A DNA stretch of 38,090 nucleotides, taken from the NCBI GenBank assembly GCA_022800815.1, contig JAAWRC010000033.1, positions 1-38,090 on the forward strand. The letters run 5' to 3'. A program made the translations under genes and the position numbers. The notes under the pieces are model-generated. The model was not told the DNA's origin. It saw only the letters and a program-made list of their open reading frames with translations, and did no database searches. Shown here in pieces: positions 12,359 through 19,845 of this stretch. Source of the stretch: Lachnospiraceae bacterium (GTDB lineage Bacteria; Bacillota; Clostridia; Lachnospirales; Lachnospiraceae). Position 1 is the stretch's first letter; every line of letters starts with the position of its first letter.

Positions 12359-12402
12359 GAGCAGGGGAATTTCCCCTGCTCGTCGTGTTTCAGTTTTTTT
12401 TT
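12359..12402. terminator. Bidirectional terminator between convergent genes
   Basis: GAGCAGGGG and CCCCTGCTC pair around AATTT (12359-12381). An A-rich run on the left (12336-12350) serves the reverse gene, and T-rich sequence with eight or more T on the right (12394-12402) serves the forward operon. The T run lies in the last codons of the reverse gene. Confidence 0.7.
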
Positions 12403-15107
12403 CGGGCAGCGAACCATGCGGCCCGAAGGAGTTTCGGCGTTTTTTTGACACTTGACCGGTCAATGCCGGTAAAGAACTCTTTGTTTGACTCTGCGAATCT
12501 GGAGAAGGCCGAAGAGCCTGTGCGGTAGAGGGCTTCCCCGTGCAGGGCGTCGTAGCGTCTGTCAAGCTCATCGAAGGCGCAGATACAACTGTGCAGGCGT
12601 CCGATATAGAGCTGATGCCCGGGGCTTCCGGCTTCCATGTATGCGATTGTCTCTTGGGTGTTGGCAGTGCACCAGCCTCTTGCTATCATCCATCTGACCC
12701 ACCTTGCATGTTCGTAGAGCATCAGATTTTTTTCGTTCTCTCCGATATGAAAACTCTTTTCAAAGGCTGACGCCATGGCATCTGCCGAGCCGGACTCGGA
12801 ATGGTTCGTGTATGCGTTTTCATCCGGAATATTCCAGCCTTTGGGGATGATGTGATCGCTGTCGTCCGTATAAGTCTGGAACAGGCGGTAGGGCAGGCTT
12901 AAGGCCGCCGCCATGGAGGAGTCTCGGTTGTAGCACTTGGCGTAATAGCTCTTCAGGGCTTCCTCTCTTTTTTCCGTAAAATCCGATTCGTCTACGCCGC
13001 AATGCTGCAGGTGGACCGACTGTGCCACTCGTCCATAATAGCCACCGTCCAGTTCCTCCCACGTGTAGCGTTCACGCAGCGCACCGAAGGGGATCAGGAG
13101 GTAGTTGTTGTACCAGCTGTCGCCGAACTTTTCCATCTGCACCACCATGCTTTCGGAAAGGCGGGCAATATTGGAATCCTCGCAGTGGCACGCAATGAGC
13201 GGAAGTTCCGTTTTGTTGATCCTGCTTCCGCTTTTGACCAGGTTGCGGATGCTCCATTCCCGGACCTTTATCCCCAGGTTCAGGCTGGAAAGGTCGTCTT
13301 TGGCGTTGATGACGAAATAGAATAACGAATTTGTCTCCCCCAGGCCGTCCAGCTCGTCCGTGAGTTTTGAGGAATATAGGGATCCGCTGCGGATGTTTTT
13401 AAAGGATAGGGCGATGCCGGAAATCCGGTCCGCATCCGGCAGCCGGGAATCTGCGTCCGACGGCATTCCCTCCAGGATGTCCGACATGCCGGGGCAGTCA
13501 AATTTCAGCCGGTCTTTGATCTGCTCTGCGGCGGGCGACAGGACCGTGATGGAAAAAGTGACGCCGTGATACCAGAAACACCCGAGCCAGAAGGCTTCCC
13601 GGATCAGCCACCTGGTCAGGCCGTCATTGTCCTGGGCGATGACCACGTAGTTTAAGGCGAAGCGTTTGTTCGCCAGGGCGTATTTTGTGTGGGAACGAAT
13701 CGGATAAAAAAGCGGATAGCGGCTGAGCAGCCGGTGAACCGGCCATTTGTCGTCGTCGATCACGTGGACGGGAATCCGGTACCGGTCCATGTGGCCGAGG
13801 GCCGTGTCCAGCAGGGCGGAGGAGGACTCTTCCTCCATCCGGATGTAAATGGAGATGTCCCATAGGTCGGTGGAGCTTCGTCTTTTATGCGGATCGGCGC
13901 CCCACGACTTGATTTTATCCAGTATGGAAAGCATGTCCTGAAAATTTTTCCCCAGGTCGTCATCAAAAAGCAGGTAGCGGATTTTTTTGGCGGGAACGGC
14001 CTGCCCGGCAAGCTCTTCGGCGGCGGAGGCGAGGATGACGTAGTCGCCGAAATGTTTTTCCATATGTTCGGGAATCGTCTTCAAAAACAGGGCGGTTCTT
14101 TTGTTCTCGCAGTTCAGCACGACGACGGCGTCGTCGGCTTCCGGCCGGCTTGGCTTATACAGAAGCGTGTCCAACCGGAAGGTTTTCCACTCTTCCCTGG
14201 CCTCGTGGCATCCGTAGGAAATCGCCCTGCGTATAAACTTCCCCCTGTCATAACCTTTGAATTTACAGCCTAACTCGCAGCATTTGACAAGCAGGTAAAA
14301 CGCCTTTCCGAGAACGGCGTCGTCGGCAAGCCGCTGGTCGGTGATCTCGAGACATAGTTCTCTGCATTCCGCATATTCTCCGGCAGAATATCGTTCCTCC
14401 GCTTCCGCAAGTTTCTCCCTGGCCTCTTTTTTTTCCCGCTCCCGGATTTTCCGGATCTCTTCATTCTGGTCAGAAACCCCGCCGCTTTTTTTCGGCCGGA
14501 AGGGAAACACGATGCCGGGCAGACCCTTTGTCATGGCCTTGCCTTTCCTGCCGTCCGAACCTTCTGCGGCCGCTCTCCAGAAATACCAGGTGGCGGCGAT
14601 CATCGCAAGGCAGGCAAGCCTGGAGGAAAAATCCTGCAGGTCGTGCTCGAATATCTCTTTCATGTCCCAGGAGCGGAAACACCGGTATAATGCGGTTTCT
14701 TCGGAAGCGGCGCCGTCCGCTCCGCTCCCCTTCAGACAATCAATCACGGCGTTTATCTGCTCCTCGTATCTCTCCCTGTCGGCTGCGGAAAGCTCCGCCA
14801 ACATGGATTCCAGATTTGTTTTCAGGTCCTGTACCGGTCTGGCATCCTCAAAGGAACAGTCTTCGCCGGAAGCGTGGCGGATGATGTTGGAGCGGACGTT
14901 CTCATATTTCATGCGGGAATGTTCGTTTGCATTCCAGAATCTGGAGAGGGCCGTCTTGTTTGCCTTAGCCAGATCCTCTCCGCCTTCCAGGATCCGGTAT
15001 TCTGGCGGAAACAGCTGAAGAATGTCCCGCTGGCCTTTTTTTAAGAGGTTGCGGGGGAATATGGTTTCCCATGTGATCTCATAATCCTTCCTAAAGTCCG
15101 TGCCCAT
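12390..15107 (-). CDS. RyR-domain protein with Rossmann-like (TrkA-N-type) middle region, 905 aa
   Basis: The C-terminal part (about residues 792-855) matches the RyR domain seen in bacterial conflict and signalling proteins: an Glu-His-x-Arg-Trp-type core (EHARWVRWMIARGWC, 799-813), then LHSCICAFDELD (838-849). The middle has two Rossmann-like segments: DAVVVLNCENKRTALFLKTI from about 326 and FALNYVVIAQDNDGLTRWLI from about 483. These resemble the NAD-binding/TrkA-N units known to precede RyR domains. Before them lie a helical N-terminus, one possible membrane helix (about 164-178, LACLAMIAATWYFW), a charged coiled coil (217-240) and a TPR/Sel1-like stretch (240-300). It is transcribed alone, leftward. 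RyR domains are predicted by others to bind nucleotide-derived ligands; ligand and effect here are unknown. A TIR gene lies 2.5 kb away on the other strand. Confidence 0.75.
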   Translation of the reverse strand: MGTDFRKDYEITWETIFPRNLLKKGQRDILQLFPPEYRILEGGEDLAKANKTALSRFWNANEHSRMKYENVRSNIIRHASGEDCSFEDARPVQDLKTNLESMLAELSAADRERYEEQINAVIDCLKGSGADGAASEETALYRCFRSWDMKEIFEHDLQDFSSRLACLAMIAATWYFWRAAAEGSDGRKGKAMTKGLPGIVFPFRPKKSGGVSDQNEEIRKIREREKKEAREKLAEAEERYSAGEYAECRELCLEITDQRLADDAVLGKAFYLLVKCCELGCKFKGYDRGKFIRRAISYGCHEAREEWKTFRLDTLLYKPSRPEADDAVVVLNCENKRTALFLKTIPEHMEKHFGDYVILASAAEELAGQAVPAKKIRYLLFDDDLGKNFQDMLSILDKIKSWGADPHKRRSSTDLWDISIYIRMEEESSSALLDTALGHMDRYRIPVHVIDDDKWPVHRLLSRYPLFYPIRSHTKYALANKRFALNYVVIAQDNDGLTRWLIREAFWLGCFWYHGVTFSITVLSPAAEQIKDRLKFDCPGMSDILEGMPSDADSRLPDADRISGIALSFKNIRSGSLYSSKLTDELDGLGETNSLFYFVINAKDDLSSLNLGIKVREWSIRNLVKSGSRINKTELPLIACHCEDSNIARLSESMVVQMEKFGDSWYNNYLLIPFGALRERYTWEELDGGYYGRVAQSVHLQHCGVDESDFTEKREEALKSYYAKCYNRDSSMAAALSLPYRLFQTYTDDSDHIIPKGWNIPDENAYTNHSESGSADAMASAFEKSFHIGENEKNLMLYEHARWVRWMIARGWCTANTQETIAYMEAGSPGHQLYIGRLHSCICAFDELDRRYDALHGEALYRTGSSAFSRFAESNKEFFTGIDRSSVKKTPKLLRAAWFAARKKN

Positions 15108-15168
15108 CGCCTATACCCTTTCTCTCCTGTTTGAATTTTGCAATTGCCTGGGAAACTATCTTATGCCC

Positions 15169-15197
15169 ATTGTAACATGGGCAAAAAACGAGCGCAA
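15169..15197 (-). promoter_or_regulatory. Promoter of the RyR-domain gene
   Basis: On the reverse strand TTGCGC (15192-15197), a 17-base spacer and TACAAT (15169-15174) lie about 60 bases ahead of the ATG at 15107. AAAGGG precedes that ATG as a ribosome site. Confidence 0.5.
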
Positions 15198-15261
15198 CGG
15201 AAAAAGCGGCCGCAGTTTCATAAAATCGATCAGATTTCATGGAAAAGTTTCATTCCACGGC

Positions 15262-15295
15262 AATAATTTCCCCGATGACACCGGGAAATTATTAT
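15262..15295 (+). promoter_or_regulatory. Inverted repeat overlapping the likely promoter of the M23-like gene
   Basis: AATAATTTCCC (15262-15272) and GGGAAATTATT (15283-15293) form a perfect 11-base inverted repeat with a 10-base centre. A weak promoter fits into it: TTTCCC (15267-15272), 17 bases, TATTAT (15290-15295). A dimeric repressor site or an RNA hairpin are both possible. Three TTTCAT repeats lie just upstream (about 15214-15254). Confidence 0.4.
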
Positions 15296-15346
15296 ATCAT
15301 GGTATTACAACAGATAACAAAATATTTTTTAAGAAAGGGGAAAAGT

Positions 15347-16852
15347 ATGAAAAGAAGAAAACTCTTAGCACTGCTTCTCGCAGTTGCGACGATCCTCGGC
15401 TCTGCCCTGTGCAGTCCGAACACCGCTCTGGCGGCCTCCATCAACACGAAATATCCCAGGACGAAGATCACGGGATACATCCTGTCAACCTCAAACAAGT
15501 CGGTAGTCGCCTATTCGTACATCGGCGGCGGTTCCGTGGGCCATATTTACGCCAGCGACGACTGCACGATCCAGGAGGTTTACACCAACGGATGGGTAAA
15601 GGTGACGGTGCCCTGGAGCGGCTACACCTACGGCAGGGTCGTGTACACCCAGCTTTCCAATTTCCTGAACACGTCCTATACGCCCCAGATGCGAAGGGTC
15701 ACGGTAAAGACGGCGGCCTACAACCGCTCCAATCTCAGTAAAAGCCTGGGGCACGTCTATGTGGGCGACAACTGTTACGTGGTGGGCGAGTCCGGAAACT
15801 ACTACCAGGTCCTCTGCCCCTGGTCCGGCGGCGGATACCGGATCTGCTGGGTCAACAAATCGGCCTTCGGGCACGTCCATTCCTACCGGACGGAATACGA
15901 GGCGGCCCACCCCCACAGGGTGTACAAGAAATGCTCCTGCGGCGACTGGTATTACACCGGCGCCACCCAGAAGGTGTCGAGCTGCGGGCCCTGCAATCCG
16001 CATGTCCATTCCTATCGGACGGAATACGAGGCGGCGCATCCACACAGAGTGTATAAGAAGTGCTCCTGCGGCGAATGGTACTATACCGGTGCCACCCAGA
16101 ATGTATCAAGCTGTACCACCTGCAATCCGGCTGCGACATACACCGGCTATGTGAACACCGCTTCTCAGCCGTTGATATTGAGACAGTCTGCCTCCACCAG
16201 TTCGGCAGCCCTTGCGAGCATGCCGAGGGGCAGCGCCCTGACGGTCCTTGACAATAAGGCAATCTACAATGGATTCTATCATGTGAGGTACGGATCGACC
16301 ACGGGATATGCCAGTCTCAGCTATATTTCCTTCACGAAGCCCCAGTCGGTTGGCCTTGCCTGGCCGGCTTCTGCGAAATATGTCACCTGCATGTATTATT
16401 ACAAAAACGGGTCAAAGCACAGCACCCGCTATGGATATCAGAATGCAATGGACATTGCCGGCGGCGGCAACATTTATGCGGCGGCGGCGGGGACCGTGGA
16501 GACGGCCACCTATCAGTCCGGAGGCTTTGGAAACTACATCGTGATTTTGCATAACGACGGCACGAGGACTCTGTATGGCCACCTGAGCAGCCGCTCGGTC
16601 TCGGCAGGACAGTATGTGAGCCAGGGGCAGAAGATCGGCGTGATGGGCTCGACCGGCAATTCCTCCGGGACACACCTCCATTTCGAGTGGTCCGGCGGGG
16701 ATCCCTGGAGGAACTACTTCAAATCCGACAGCAGCCTGATCTATGAGGCGAACGTCCGGACCAACAACGCAAATTATAATTCCGACAAAGCGATCGTCCG
16801 GTTTCTTGATTCCAATTACCGCTACAGCGGCGGATACTATTACAGAAAGTAA
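15347..16852 (+). CDS. Secreted SH3-like/M23-like cell-wall protein with substituted zinc ligand
   Basis: This 501-residue protein has a signal peptide (1-30: basic MKRRK, hydrophobic core, cut after ALA-A). Two SH3b-like regions follow (about 36-110 and 112-172). Next are two 43-residue Cys/His repeats (176-261) and a third SH3b-like region (about 265-328). The C-terminus is an M23/lysostaphin-type domain (about 345-462). The M23 parts seen are AMDIAGGGNIYAAAAGTV, TLYGHLS (His412) and THLHFEW (His443, His445). The usual His-x-x-x-Asp zinc motif reads Gln365-N-A-M-Asp369, so one metal ligand is missing; the enzyme may be inactive and act by binding. ATG 15347 follows AAAGGGG. A longer frame from 15239 would bury the signal peptide. 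Confidence 0.85.
   Translation: MKRRKLLALLLAVATILGSALCSPNTALAASINTKYPRTKITGYILSTSNKSVVAYSYIGGGSVGHIYASDDCTIQEVYTNGWVKVTVPWSGYTYGRVVYTQLSNFLNTSYTPQMRRVTVKTAAYNRSNLSKSLGHVYVGDNCYVVGESGNYYQVLCPWSGGGYRICWVNKSAFGHVHSYRTEYEAAHPHRVYKKCSCGDWYYTGATQKVSSCGPCNPHVHSYRTEYEAAHPHRVYKKCSCGEWYYTGATQNVSSCTTCNPAATYTGYVNTASQPLILRQSASTSSAALASMPRGSALTVLDNKAIYNGFYHVRYGSTTGYASLSYISFTKPQSVGLAWPASAKYVTCMYYYKNGSKHSTRYGYQNAMDIAGGGNIYAAAAGTVETATYQSGGFGNYIVILHNDGTRTLYGHLSSRSVSAGQYVSQGQKIGVMGSTGNSSGTHLHFEWSGGDPWRNYFKSDSSLIYEANVRTNNANYNSDKAIVRFLDSNYRYSGGYYYRK
15872..16129 (+). repeat. Two tandem 129-base coding repeats (43-residue Cys/His units)
   Basis: Units 15872-16000 and 16001-16129 encode near-identical 43-residue modules that start HVHSYRTEYEAAHPHRVYKK, then CSCG, WYYTGATQ and SSC..C. 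Each has three or more His and four Cys, fitting a small zinc-binding fold. Most DNA differences are at third codon positions, so the protein repeat has been kept by selection since duplication. Confidence 0.85.
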
Positions 16853-16889
16853 CGGCATCAGCATGCAAAGAAAGCGGTGATTTTCCAAA

Positions 16890-16931
16890 ATCCGGCGCAC
16901 GAAGAGGTTCCGATCCCTTCGTGCGCCGGAT
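16890..16931 (+). terminator. Strong hairpin after the M23-like gene
   Basis: ATCCGGCGCACGAAG (16890-16904) pairs perfectly over 15 bases with 16917-16931, leaving a 12-base loop. A T-containing tail (aactttgttgatttt) follows. It separates the M23-like gene from the next promoter. Confidence 0.7.
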
Positions 16932-16938
16932 AACTTTG

Positions 16939-16967
16939 TTGATTTTCTGCAACGGGGAGGGTATAAT
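16939..16967 (+). promoter_or_regulatory. Promoter of the small-protein/TIR pair
   Basis: TTGATT (16939-16944), exactly 17 bases, then a perfect TATAAT (16962-16967). It lies 30 bases before the ATG at 16997 and directly after the terminator hairpin, so the two downstream genes form their own unit. Confidence 0.7.
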
Positions 16968-16996
16968 AAAGTATTGTTTAAAGGCGGGTTGTCCAT

Positions 16997-17539
16997 ATGA
17001 TGCAGATCAGAAAAAAAGAAGGAACGATTGTCAAGGCGTATTGTCTGGAAGAAAACAGTCCGATGATACACAAGTTTATGGAGGAAGGGAAATTATGTTC
17101 CATTGATGAGAACCACTGGAGGATTTTTTCTCGGGAATCCAAAGAGGGAGAGCTGGCTCAGTCCGGGGATTATGTGAAAATGGACTCCGGGGGAAACCTT
17201 TATCCAAATAACAGGAGCTTTTTTTTAAGAAACCATCGATTTTTGGGTGAGGATACCTATGAGCAGATTTCCCGGCCGCTCAGGGCCTGGTGCGCAGGGG
17301 ACGACATGTGCCCGGAAGTTCAGTTTTTGATGGAACACAAAGATCTGAGAATCCATGCGGATGACGAACATGCCTATTTCAGCGCATCTTTATGGGGGGA
17401 TCTGTTACGGGCGGCTAAGGATGCGGTCATCGTATTCTATGACATCGAGTATGATGCCGAAAGGACGGTCATAGATGCGGATTTTAACTTTGTGTCACGT
17501 GATGAATTTGAGGCGCAGTATGACATAGTAAGCTCATGA
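16997..17539 (+). CDS. Small soluble protein with PGDYI-like N-terminal domain, function unknown
   Basis: The product is 180 residues. The N-terminal part starts with IRKKEGTIVKAYCL and has SGDYVKMDSGGNLYPNNRSF. It resembles the small family, common in phage and accessory DNA, that begins M-x-x-RKKP-x-x-x-A and contains PGDYIIKG...YP. The second half (about 100-180) has a Cys pair (WCAGDDMCPEVQF) and an acidic end, and I do not recognise it. No signal peptide or membrane helix is present. ATG 16997 is next to a second ATG and lacks a strong ribosome site. The gene is 55 bases upstream of the TIR gene under one promoter, so the two products may act together. Confidence 0.6.
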   Translation: MMQIRKKEGTIVKAYCLEENSPMIHKFMEEGKLCSIDENHWRIFSRESKEGELAQSGDYVKMDSGGNLYPNNRSFFLRNHRFLGEDTYEQISRPLRAWCAGDDMCPEVQFLMEHKDLRIHADDEHAYFSASLWGDLLRAAKDAVIVFYDIEYDAERTVIDADFNFVSRDEFEAQYDIVSS

Positions 17540-17594
17540 TTTCGGGAGAGGTCAATGTCCGCAGGGGATACCGGGATGTCAGAAAGGAAAAGCG

Positions 17595-18155
17595 ATGCCG
17601 GAAAAAGCAATATTTATCAGTCATTCGAGCAAGGATTATGAAATTGCAAAAAGAATCTGTGATGTTTTTGAAGAGAACGGCCTGGGATGCTGGATTGCGC
17701 CCAGGGATATTCCTTATGGTGCGGAATGGGCGGAGACGATCGTCAGGGGAATCCGCACTTCCAGCATCATGCTGGTATTGATCACGGAACATTCTGTCGC
17801 TTCCAAGCATGTGATCAGAGAAATCCATTCCGCCGTCCGGAATGACGTCCGGGTTTTGTACGTGAGGCTGGATTCCGCCCCTTTGAGCGACGGATTGGCC
17901 TATTATCTGGACGTTTTACAGGAGATCGACATTGATCTGGCTTCTGACCGATGTGACGAGGAGCTTTTGCGGTTGACCGCCTACGTAAAAACGTGCCTGT
18001 CGGGATTTCCCGAAGGCGGAACGGCGGGGCGATCAAGACCTCGCCTGTCTTCAGGACAGGTGGAGATTTCAGGTGTGCGGGTCTCCCGGGAGCCGGCGGC
18101 GGGGGAGGACGCCTTTTCCGACATGATGAGAGGGCTGCTCAGGAAGCTGAGATGA
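17595..18155 (+). CDS. TIR-domain protein (probable NAD+-cleaving enzyme)
   Basis: The 186-residue product is a TIR domain (about 3-135) with a short polar tail. The classic parts are the start strand and loop KAIFISHSSKDYEIAKRI, the BB-loop-like GCWIAPRDIPYGAEWAETIV, a core strand IMLVLITEHS, and SKHVIREIHSAV. Glu76 of the last part is where NADase TIRs (SARM1, bacterial TIRs) have the catalytic Glu. Many bacterial TIRs cut NAD+ or make cyclic ADP-ribose-type signals; activity here is inferred. It is unusual in standing nearly alone: no sensor, STAND, Ago or SLOG domain is fused to it. ATG 17595 follows AAAGGA. It is co-transcribed with the small protein upstream. Confidence 0.88.
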   Translation: MPEKAIFISHSSKDYEIAKRICDVFEENGLGCWIAPRDIPYGAEWAETIVRGIRTSSIMLVLITEHSVASKHVIREIHSAVRNDVRVLYVRLDSAPLSDGLAYYLDVLQEIDIDLASDRCDEELLRLTAYVKTCLSGFPEGGTAGRSRPRLSSGQVEISGVRVSREPAAGEDAFSDMMRGLLRKLR

Positions 18156-18162
18156 GAAGAAA

Positions 18163-18261
18163 TTGAACAAAAAGGTTGAACTTTTTTGCGGCTCGTGTTA
18201 TACTACACGAAGAGTTGAACTTCAAAAACAAAATTGAACAAAAATGCGGATGAAATTGAAC
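18163..18261 (+). repeat. Five TTGAAC direct repeats before the XRE-aminotransferase gene
   Basis: TTGAAC occurs at 18163, 18176, 18215, 18234 and 18256, always with A or G before it. The second copy is the -35 element of a promoter. They could be operator half-sites for the XRE protein encoded next. Confidence 0.5.
18176..18204 (+). promoter_or_regulatory. Promoter of the XRE-aminotransferase gene
   Basis: TTGAAC (18176-18181), exactly 17 bases, TATACT (18199-18204). Transcription would start near 18211, about 65 bases before the preferred ATG at 18277. Confidence 0.7.
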
Positions 18262-18276
18262 TTGCGGGAGAACGGC

Positions 18277-19845
18277 ATGTCACGGGAGACCTTTGCGGAC
18301 AGATTGAAGCTTGCGATGGAAAAACAGAATATGAAACAGGCAGACCTGATCCGCGCAGCAAATGAGCGGGGGGTCAAGCTGGGAAAAAGCCATGTGAGCC
18401 AGTATGTGGGGGGCAAGACCGTTCCGCGGGAGGGGATCCTCCGTTTTTTGGCAGAAGCCCTTCAGGTGGAGGCGGACTGGCTGAGGGGAGGGGCCGCCGG
18501 GATTTTGCGGACGGACGACGTTTCAGGGCCGGCGGGTCCCGGGGAAGGGCGCCCGGAGGAGACTCGGAAAACGAGCCGGAGGTCTGGCGGCGGAGGGAGT
18601 AAAAGAAAGGAAGAGCTGGGAGGCAGGAACATGCGGGAGTTTAAAAAATCGTCGAAACTGGATAACGTGCTGTATGATGTGAGAGGCCCGGTGGTGGAAG
18701 AGGCGGCCCGAATGGAGGAGGCGGGGATGCAGATTTTGAAATTGAACATCGGGAATCCCGCTCCCTTCGGCTTCCGAACGCCGGACGAGGTCATTCTGGA
18801 TATGCGCAGACAGCTCACGGAGTGCGAGGGCTACTCTCAGGCCAACGGGCTGTTTTCCGCTAGAAAGGCGATCATGCAGTATGCACAGATCAAACGGATT
18901 CCCAATGTCTCCATGGACGACATTTATACGGGAAACGGGGTCAGCGAGTTAATCAACCTGTGCATGTCGGCCCTGCTCGATGACGGAGACGAGATTCTGA
19001 TCCCTTCTCCGGACTATCCCCTGTGGACCGCCAGCGCCACCCTGGCCGGGGGCACGCCGGTTCATTATATCTGCGACGAACAGGCGGAATGGTATCCGGA
19101 CATGGAGGATATCAAAAAGAAGATCACGGACAGGACCAAGGCCATCGTGATCATCAACCCCAACAACCCCACCGGGGCGCTGTATCCGAGGGAGGTCCTG
19201 CAGCAGATCGTCGACATTGCCAGGGAGCACCAGTTGATGATCTTTTCCGACGAGATCTACGACCGGCTGGTCATGGACGGGGAGAAGCACGTGTCCATTG
19301 CGTCGCTGGCGCCGGATTTATTTTGTACCACCTTCAGCGGCCTGTCCAAGTCCCACATGATTGCGGGCTTCCGCATCGGGTGGATGGTCTTAAGCGGCAA
19401 CAAGGCCATTGCGAAGGACTACATGGAAGGAATCAAGATGCTCTCCAACATGCGGCTCTGCTCCAACGTGCCGGCCCAGTCGGTGGTACAGACGGCCCTC
19501 TGGGGTCATCAGAGCGTCGAGGGCTACGTGGTGCCGGGAGGACGGATCTACGACCAGAGGGAATGCGTGTACAATGCCTTGGTGGATATTCCGGGAATCA
19601 GCGTCGTGAAACCCAAGGGCGCTTTCTACATGTTCCCGAAGATCGACGTGAAAAAGTTCAATATTACGGATGATGAAAAATTTGTGCTGGATCTTCTGCG
19701 GGACAAAAAGGTTCTGCTGATCCACGGCGGCGGCTTCAACTGGAAGGAGCCGGACCACTTCCGGGTGGTGTACCTGCCGAGGGTGGGGGTCCTGAAAGAA
19801 TTTACGGAGAAACTTGCGGATTTCCTGAGTTATTATCACCAGTAA
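18277..19845 (+). CDS. XRE-type HTH fused to an AlaA/AlaT-type PLP aminotransferase
   Basis: The product is 522 residues. Residues 1-70 are a lambda-repressor/XRE helix-turn-helix (MKQADLIRAANERGVKLGKS, then HVSQYVGGKTVPREGILRFL). Residues 73-118 are a Gly/Ser/Arg/Lys-rich linker. Residues 119-522 are a complete fold-type-I aminotransferase like alanine transaminase: KLNIGNPAPFGF, INPNNPTG, FSDEIYD and SGLSKSHMIAGFRIGWM with Schiff-base Lys358. It probably makes alanine and 2-oxoglutarate from pyruvate and glutamate, or the reverse. An ATG at 18244 is in frame but has no ribosome site; 18277 follows GGGAG by 8 bases. An internal ATG at 18631, after a strong GGGAGG, could give the enzyme alone. 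The layout recalls MocR proteins, but with XRE in place of GntR. Confidence 0.85.
   Translation: MSRETFADRLKLAMEKQNMKQADLIRAANERGVKLGKSHVSQYVGGKTVPREGILRFLAEALQVEADWLRGGAAGILRTDDVSGPAGPGEGRPEETRKTSRRSGGGGSKRKEELGGRNMREFKKSSKLDNVLYDVRGPVVEEAARMEEAGMQILKLNIGNPAPFGFRTPDEVILDMRRQLTECEGYSQANGLFSARKAIMQYAQIKRIPNVSMDDIYTGNGVSELINLCMSALLDDGDEILIPSPDYPLWTASATLAGGTPVHYICDEQAEWYPDMEDIKKKITDRTKAIVIINPNNPTGALYPREVLQQIVDIAREHQLMIFSDEIYDRLVMDGEKHVSIASLAPDLFCTTFSGLSKSHMIAGFRIGWMVLSGNKAIAKDYMEGIKMLSNMRLCSNVPAQSVVQTALWGHQSVEGYVVPGGRIYDQRECVYNALVDIPGISVVKPKGAFYMFPKIDVKKFNITDDEKFVLDLLRDKKVLLIHGGGFNWKEPDHFRVVYLPRVGVLKEFTEKLADFLSYYHQ
18618..18633 (+). promoter_or_regulatory. Internal ribosome site and ATG for a stand-alone aminotransferase
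   Basis: GGGAGG (18618-18623), 7 bases, ATG (18631-18633), in frame, at codon 119 of the fusion. The protein from here (MREFKKSSKLDN..., 404 residues) has the length and N-terminus normal for AlaA/AlaT. A strong site in this exact place inside a gene suggests two products. Confidence 0.6.

Follow-up and report, generated by a model that had tools for sequence, protein, structure and literature searches.

Does a TIR gene lying close to the gene for a protein that ends in a ryanodine-receptor (RyR) domain mark a bacterial signalling pair, in which one partner makes a nucleotide messenger and the other reads it? The question is raised by a 38,090-nt contig (the window) of the 3.4-Mb genome, assembled in 75 contigs, of a Lachnospiraceae bacterium. 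An island of four genes has been confirmed there: a 905-residue Rossmann-RyR protein, the proposed signal receiver (12390..15107, reverse strand), followed on the forward strand by an M23 hydrolase, a 180-residue protein and a 186-residue TIR protein, the proposed signal maker (17595..18155). The original prediction had placed a TIR protein with a catalytic-type Glu76 and an RyR-domain protein within 6 kb of each other on opposite strands, which is borne out by the coordinates, by a Pfam TIR_2 match (E 3.8e-21) and by profile-profile comparison. Among the parts that it had named for the island, the TIR, RyR and M23 (E 1.1e-25) proteins and the small protein are retained, and the label “PGDYI-like” finds no support in Pfam, PADLOC, NCBIfam or PHROGs; the sequence shows only a GDYV/GDWI...YPN motif. 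The answer proposed here, which we hold tentatively and somewhat short of even confidence, is that the TIR protein may make an ADP-ribose-type signal that the Rossmann-RyR protein would read, the two forming a two-component nucleotide-signal system.

The RyR assignment comes from profile-profile comparison. Pfam, PADLOC, NCBIfam and PHROGs name no RyR domain in the 905-residue protein; the PF02026 model gives no match in it at E up to 1, leaving the Pfam gathering score unreached, and none in its own genome at E 1e-3. A profile of the C-termini of this protein and its relatives in the sister species G004 and in the more distant genome G314 matched the 46 domains found with PF02026 (hhalign probability 95.9, E 5.7e-9), and the full proteins matched 38 Rossmann-RyR proteins (probability 98.6, E 7e-16) over 476 columns running from the Rossmann units through a common linker into the RyR domain. 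Judged by these alignments, the 905-residue protein is homologous to RyR-domain proteins and part of a wider Rossmann-RyR family. Its RyR-like domain spans residues about 795-862 (12522..12725, reverse strand), and residues about 326-705 (12993..14132, reverse strand) form two Rossmann-like units, which hhalign relates to RCK/TrkA_N-type units in other RyR proteins; these units may fairly be called “RCK-like”, because in a relative from outside the bacterial family (L134) TrkA_N and RyR both exceed the Pfam cut-offs. The N-terminal part is predicted to be helical, with only residues about 221-280 modelled with fair confidence. Hydropathy reveals no clear transmembrane helix in the protein (1.26 for the best 19-residue stretch), and Pfam, PADLOC and NCBIfam detect no nuclease domain in it. 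The RyR profile has no sequence match in the PDB at E up to 1 and no confirmed match in viral contigs, and the protein has no tblastn match in plasmids or in 50,697 phage records. Across the order, a three-row RyR profile matched 6 of 295 genomes, namely the window's own and five weakly (best E per genome 7e-8 to 5e-6).

That RyR domains bind nucleotide-derived ligands, as the original prediction had assumed, is directly supported by the phage RyDEP proteins, which, according to a recent preprint, bind or cut 2'/3' cyclic ADP-ribose (cADPR) and hold it in a pocket formed by H75, W78, H100 and D117 (PMC13232231). Residues H800, W803 and H839 of the window protein occupy the motif positions matching these ligand residues, and the H-x-x-W motif is conserved in 49 of the 51 domains examined, with the second His found in 43 by a loose pattern. 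The fourth residue, D853, is equated with the RyDEP Asp by spacing only (14 versus 17 residues past the second His); it is, like the other three, invariant in the window, G004 and G314. RyDEP (PF02026, R12 domain) and the window domain thus share H-x-x-W and the second pocket His; they differ in that RyDEP is a phage anti-defence protein, whereas the window domain stands at the end of a 905-residue bacterial protein, has a loop 14 residues longer between the two His and does not reach the Pfam cut-off. A small phage-encoded R12 protein was considered as an identity for the window protein and set aside, given its length of 905 residues, its bacterial contig and the lack of matches in phage records and viral contigs.

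The proposed maker matches TIR_2 with 76.2 bits against a cut-off of 28, covering profile positions 1-108 of 122. Its residue 76 (codon 17820..17822, forward strand) is a glutamate within VIREIHSA, at the catalytic-type position, and is Glu in G004 as well; we take it to be the residue that acts in catalysis in TIR NADases. By these features the protein belongs to the TIR fold with a catalytic-type Glu and is a candidate NADase; no PDB sequence matches it at E up to 0.001. Its first ~137 residues are 74% identical to the G004 TIR protein, and over residues 1-134 the nonsynonymous and synonymous divergences (dN and dS) are 0.14-0.16 and 0.5-0.8, respectively (dN/dS 0.16-0.30).

Both genes are maintained together in the closest relative. 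The pairing would have been called into question had they been found in unrelated places in close relatives; both are syntenic in G004, which carries all four genes in the order and orientation of the window. Comparison of the two genomes gives dN/dS below 0.31 for all four genes, about 0.15 for the RyR protein (dN 0.15, dS 1.0), which is the mark of purifying selection. With dN/dS well below 1, none of the four looks like a gene that is dead in both lineages, and because the order is also kept, the island frames are not chance ones. A search of 11 genomes of the genus gave clear copies of both the RyR and the TIR protein in the window genome and in G004 only, with a single weak match to the former in G001 (E 6.7e-4).

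The co-occurrence of TIR and RyR genes, which the original prediction had named first among its checks, exceeds chance in a sample of 299 genomes of the family. PF02026 at E up to 1e-3 marked 50 places in 44 of these genomes (nine of the matches under the Pfam cut-off and four without a single open frame covering the domain), and TIR_2 was found in 140. Stretches around all 50 places, several of them ending at contig ends, were scanned with a TIR profile built from 13 TIR domains of these same loci plus the window and G004 copies. A TIR domain lies within 1.2 kb of 15 of the 50 RyR matches, in all 15 downstream and on the same strand and in 13 within 650 bp, against an expectation, in any orientation, of 0.084 (0.35 within 5 kb); at least nine of the 15 nearest TIR domains are also among the TIR_2 matches listed. 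Some of the 15 are by eye related operons (L082/L084, L114/L115), so that not all are independent events. Extending the distance to 4.4 kb brings the count to 21, including two places (L087 and L109) where the order is reversed, a TIR-bearing gene on the same strand ending 36 and 125 bp ahead of the RyR gene. At the level of genomes, TIR is present in 34 of the 44 RyR-positive genomes and in 106 of the 255 others (Fisher p 1.3e-5), an enrichment that, taken alone, could reflect defence-rich genomes. RyR as captured by PF02026 is mostly a trait of this family, being found in 5 of 254 genomes of a phylum-wide sample, two of them in the family. The linkage nevertheless recurs outside it: G738 encodes an RyR protein, a TIR protein and a second RyR protein in a row, and G711 has a TIR within 2 kb of RyR.

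The architectures of the linked pairs are diverse. Sorted by hydropathy, the 15 linked RyR proteins include eight with a hydrophobic stretch at the N-terminus, one of them a K+-channel pore; four are stand-alone domains of 82-102 residues (L071, L072, L074, L076), two are long without such a stretch (L111, L078), and one has a broken frame (L102). The channel protein, at L086, combines a K+-channel-type pore (Ion_trans_2, E 2.7e-13; TTVGYGD) with an RyR end and is followed by a TIR gene with beta-propeller matches under the cut-offs. Elsewhere RyR precedes more elaborate TIR proteins: at L115 an RyR domain under the cut-off stands ahead of TIR-WD40 (WD40 above the cut-off), and at L103 RyR stands ahead of TIR-TPR with an AAA_16 match just under the cut-off, a STAND-like arrangement. 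A weak match to the window's own profile (E 2.1e-6; L035, genome G262) is a Rossmann-RyR-motif protein without a Pfam match, followed by a TIR-LRR gene. DUF4062, described as a family of TIR-like NADases (PMC13174449), was found in 14 of the 50 genomes searched, with no match in that of the window; DUF4062 genes directly adjoin RyR genes at L073, L075 and L083. Two loci deserve mention in their own right. At L086:7949-12126 (G084:C15) the TIR gene begins 5 bp downstream of the channel-RyR gene, which probably makes this locus a better test case than the window. At L132:4035-11326 (G433:C159) a match to the window profile (RyR part), a Castor/Pollux-like protein (under the cut-off, E 5.4e-4) and a TIR gene follow one another in a row on one strand.

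The order of events that these data suggest would begin with a trigger, most likely phage infection. The TIR protein would cleave NAD+ to yield an ADP-ribose-type messenger, such as 2'cADPR or 3'cADPR, which would bind the RyR pocket through H800, W803, H839 and possibly D853; the Rossmann units might then switch the N-terminal helical part, which would carry or recruit the output and so contribute to phage defence. The 180-residue protein accompanies the RyR protein, for which it may serve as adaptor, inhibitor or target. This maker-receiver scheme is preferred because of the RyR homology and ligand residues, the TIR domain with its Glu, the linkage at 15 of 50 places with two upstream cases, the channel-RyR gene before TIR at L086, the DUF4062 genes beside RyR, the linkage outside the family (G738, G711) and the same four genes in G004 with dN/dS below 0.31.

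Several observations weigh against it. Pfam makes no RyR call on the 905-residue protein, and the predicted structure of that protein, obtained with a two-row alignment, is poor (mean predicted local distance difference test score, pLDDT, 37). Within the family, no TIR was found in the stretch retrieved around 29 of the 50 RyR matches, and outside it G823 has RyR and no TIR match. The window pair itself departs from the recurrent unit, in which TIR lies within 1.2 kb downstream on the same strand: its two genes lie about 2.5 kb from each other on opposite strands, separated by the small-protein gene and by that of M23, whose part in signalling is at most putative; it also lacks a membrane pore. 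In G314, the TIR genes are 14 and 18 kb distant from the window-type RyR protein, which adjoins nuclease-type genes instead; G426 has no TIR_2 match in its genome, and in G433 the TIR genes are on contigs other than that of the small protein. Finally, the window TIR protein lacks the long tail of the 518-residue G004 frame. The producer-receiver idea of the original prediction is therefore supported in part: co-occurrence beyond chance and the ligand residues of the RyR domain speak for it, and the opposite strands of the window pair, the missing sister tail and the three distant genomes without an adjoining TIR do not.

Some of the same facts would suit a reading in which TIR and RyR proteins work independently of each other, in defence or regulation, and have a variable chromosomal site in common, an explanation that we consider unlikely, if the best placed of the alternatives. 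The site does vary, with an SLFN_AlbA gene in G005 and another gene in G010; the two genes are on opposite strands; in G314 and G426 the small protein is accompanied by RyR and a nuclease, not by TIR; and the genome-level enrichment may stem from defence-rich genomes, the count having been made without a second defence family as a control for clustering. General clustering does not, however, predict that all 15 nearest TIR domains would lie downstream on the same strand, nor that the linkage would recur in other families.

The RyR protein could alternatively act as a brake, which, by destroying or sequestering the TIR signal, averts self-poisoning or ends the alarm, the effector then being TIR itself, through NAD+ loss, or another protein. 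The RyDEP preprint describes cutting of 2'/3'cADPR by a His/Asp pair and reports that six of eight tested homologues bind the signals, those other than RyDEP not cleaving them (PMC13232231). A pocket that can cut or soak up a signal keeps the brake in play as a doubtful alternative, and the RyDEP-sized stand-alone RyR genes that precede TIR at four loci would suit it. A receiver is nonetheless more plausible in view of the channel- and nuclease-linked relatives: the hydrophobic N-termini of eight of the 15 linked proteins, one of them a channel pore, and the Card1-like nuclease end of an RyR-motif protein in G314 fit a receiver better than a scavenger. That the window holds a decaying system, whose TIR protein no longer functions as a partner after losing a regulatory tail, is improbable: only about the first 137 TIR residues align with the 518-residue G004 frame, the remainder being unmatched in the window, yet the TIR domain is nearly complete, Glu76 is kept, dN/dS over residues 1-134 is 0.16-0.30, a short TIR protein can reportedly suffice, as in Thoeris ThsB, and G004 could instead have gained the extension, which is absent from the window and shows a weak Sel1 match at its end (E 0.0051).

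The proposed maker-receiver pair resembles several known systems without coinciding with any. As in Thoeris, a TIR gene lies near a multi-domain protein with Rossmann-type units that is a possible receiver of an ADP-ribose-type signal, and the window TIR exceeds the Pfam ThsB_TIR cut-off (24.9 versus 21.2 bits); unlike in Thoeris, the proposed receiver ends in RyR and the genes are on opposite strands. No ThsA with SIR2/SLOG domains or other known receiver was found in the island or in the gene next to it (Pfam, with PADLOC on the four proteins), and three of the four proteins have no PADLOC match, the TIR protein matching TIR-holding models or unnamed candidates, with no CD-NTase as would be expected of the cyclic oligonucleotide-based antiphage signalling system (CBASS). 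Classical Thoeris, CBASS and type III CRISPR have been rejected on the Pfam and PADLOC results. Card1/Can2-like CARF nucleases are accessories of type III CRISPR systems; Card1-like nucleases are fused to RyR-motif proteins, or encoded two genes from them, together with the same small protein in G314 and G426, whereas the window RyR protein has no detected nuclease domain. TIR and RyR domains have reportedly been proposed as parts of nucleotide-signal conflict systems in a 2015 survey by Burroughs and colleagues, which may already mention the association. A TIR-made signal with its receiver is in itself a known kind of system. No description of bacterial TIR-RyR operons was found in the literature searched: the one paper on bacterial or phage RyR domains that this gave, the RyDEP preprint, concerns phage proteins in its accessible part (PMC13232231), and the terms “RyR” and “ryanodine” are absent from PMC9503650 and PMC7159879. 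The DUF4062 TIR-like NADases known as Swarozyc share with the system proposed for the window an NADase-type defence and the adjacency to RyR genes noted above; they differ in that the window has a canonical TIR and that Swarozyc is described as acting by NAD+ depletion (PMC13174449).

On a wider view, which we hold with less assurance than the maker-receiver scheme itself, the window may be the soluble member of an undescribed class of bacterial alarm systems. An enzyme of the TIR or the TIR-like DUF4062 kind would supply a cyclic ADP-ribose-type messenger in such systems, and a receptor RyR domain, acting through RCK-like units, would control outputs such as nucleases or channel-type membrane proteins. 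Immune messengers are made by TIR enzymes in plants as well as in bacteria, and new receivers for them are still coming to light. If correct, the proposal would point to a bacterial forerunner of the link between cADPR and ryanodine receptors that is debated in animals. A bacterial RyR-domain receiver, which in one relative has a K+-channel-type pore and an adjoining TIR gene, would offer a simple bench system for the long-standing question of whether cyclic ADP-ribose acts through RyR domains, and would hint at a reason for the presence in phages of RyR-domain proteins able to bind or cut such messengers.

The 180-residue protein (16997..17539, forward strand), with relatives in G004, G314, G426 and G433, has no assigned family. 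Its gene ends 55 bp before the TIR gene on the same strand, and co-transcription of the two, suggested by this spacing, is plausible; a promoter-like site precedes the pair (16939..16967, forward strand), in a consensus scan that gave 10 sites versus 4.3 expected in the region. No family match was obtained in Pfam, PADLOC or NCBIfam (best PHROGs E 0.29). A profile of the protein gave two weak PDB matches, taken as chance (best E 0.049), and no confirmed match in viral contigs; the predicted structure is poor (mean pLDDT 43, two-row alignment); and tblastn found no match to the window protein in phages or to the G314 protein in plasmids. Divergence from G004 amounts to dN 0.20-0.22 and dS 1.2-1.9.

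The small protein is found in 4 of 344 genomes of the order (the window's, G314, G426 and G433), G004 being a further genome with a copy. In G314 its gene is flanked by an AAA gene and by one for an RyR-motif protein whose end resembles Card1 (a Card1 match slightly under the Pfam cut-off; PADLOC CARF_PDDEXK, E 3.2e-13), and the gene for the window-type RyR protein follows; in G426, in a broken frame, it comes after an RyR-motif Rossmann protein and a Card1-like nuclease; and in G433 no RyR occurs in the 18 kb read around it, the RyR-TIR row of that genome being on another contig. The RyR protein is thus the commonest companion of the small protein, with TIR and nuclease as alternative neighbours; these neighbourhoods fit a sensor module with exchangeable partners and count against the small protein and TIR as the core. 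The loci with RyR-motif proteins, Card1-like nucleases and the same small protein are L034:1-19501 (G314:C3), which also has ThiF and AAA genes, and L123:237-4243 (G426:C61).

The M23 peptidase with SH3_3 (15239..16852, forward strand) has an orthologue in G004 (dN 0.05, dS 0.43, dN/dS about 0.11), and its real start is probably at 15347, ahead of a predicted signal peptide. Within the gene, at 15871-16128, lie two tandem 129-nt copies, 84% identical, each encoding a His/Cys-rich repeat.

The island occupies 12376..18174 and has no counterpart in G005, of the same genus: in a blastn comparison with L036 synteny ends at 12375 and restarts at 18175. An antiporter operon (MnhB, Proton_antipo_M) flanks it on one side and an HTH-aminotransferase gene (HTH, helix-turn-helix) on the other. 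A Schlafen-AlbA (SLFN_AlbA_2) gene takes its place in G005, and a relative of the window gene at 1739-2761 does so in G010; the site of 12376-18174 therefore varies within the genus between these three states (window, L036, L037). A recognisable integrative element was rejected, since no tRNA gene was found and a Pfam scan of 14 window proteins, a subset of those encoded, showed no integrase. The flanking frame at 18244-19845 joins an aminotransferase to an N-terminal HTH_3, an arrangement that is kept in G004 and G005 and is either an unusual fusion or two genes read as one. At the other end of the window, a reverse-strand frame (181-636) resembles, in a by-eye reading, a piece of a transposase that runs into an HTH tail.

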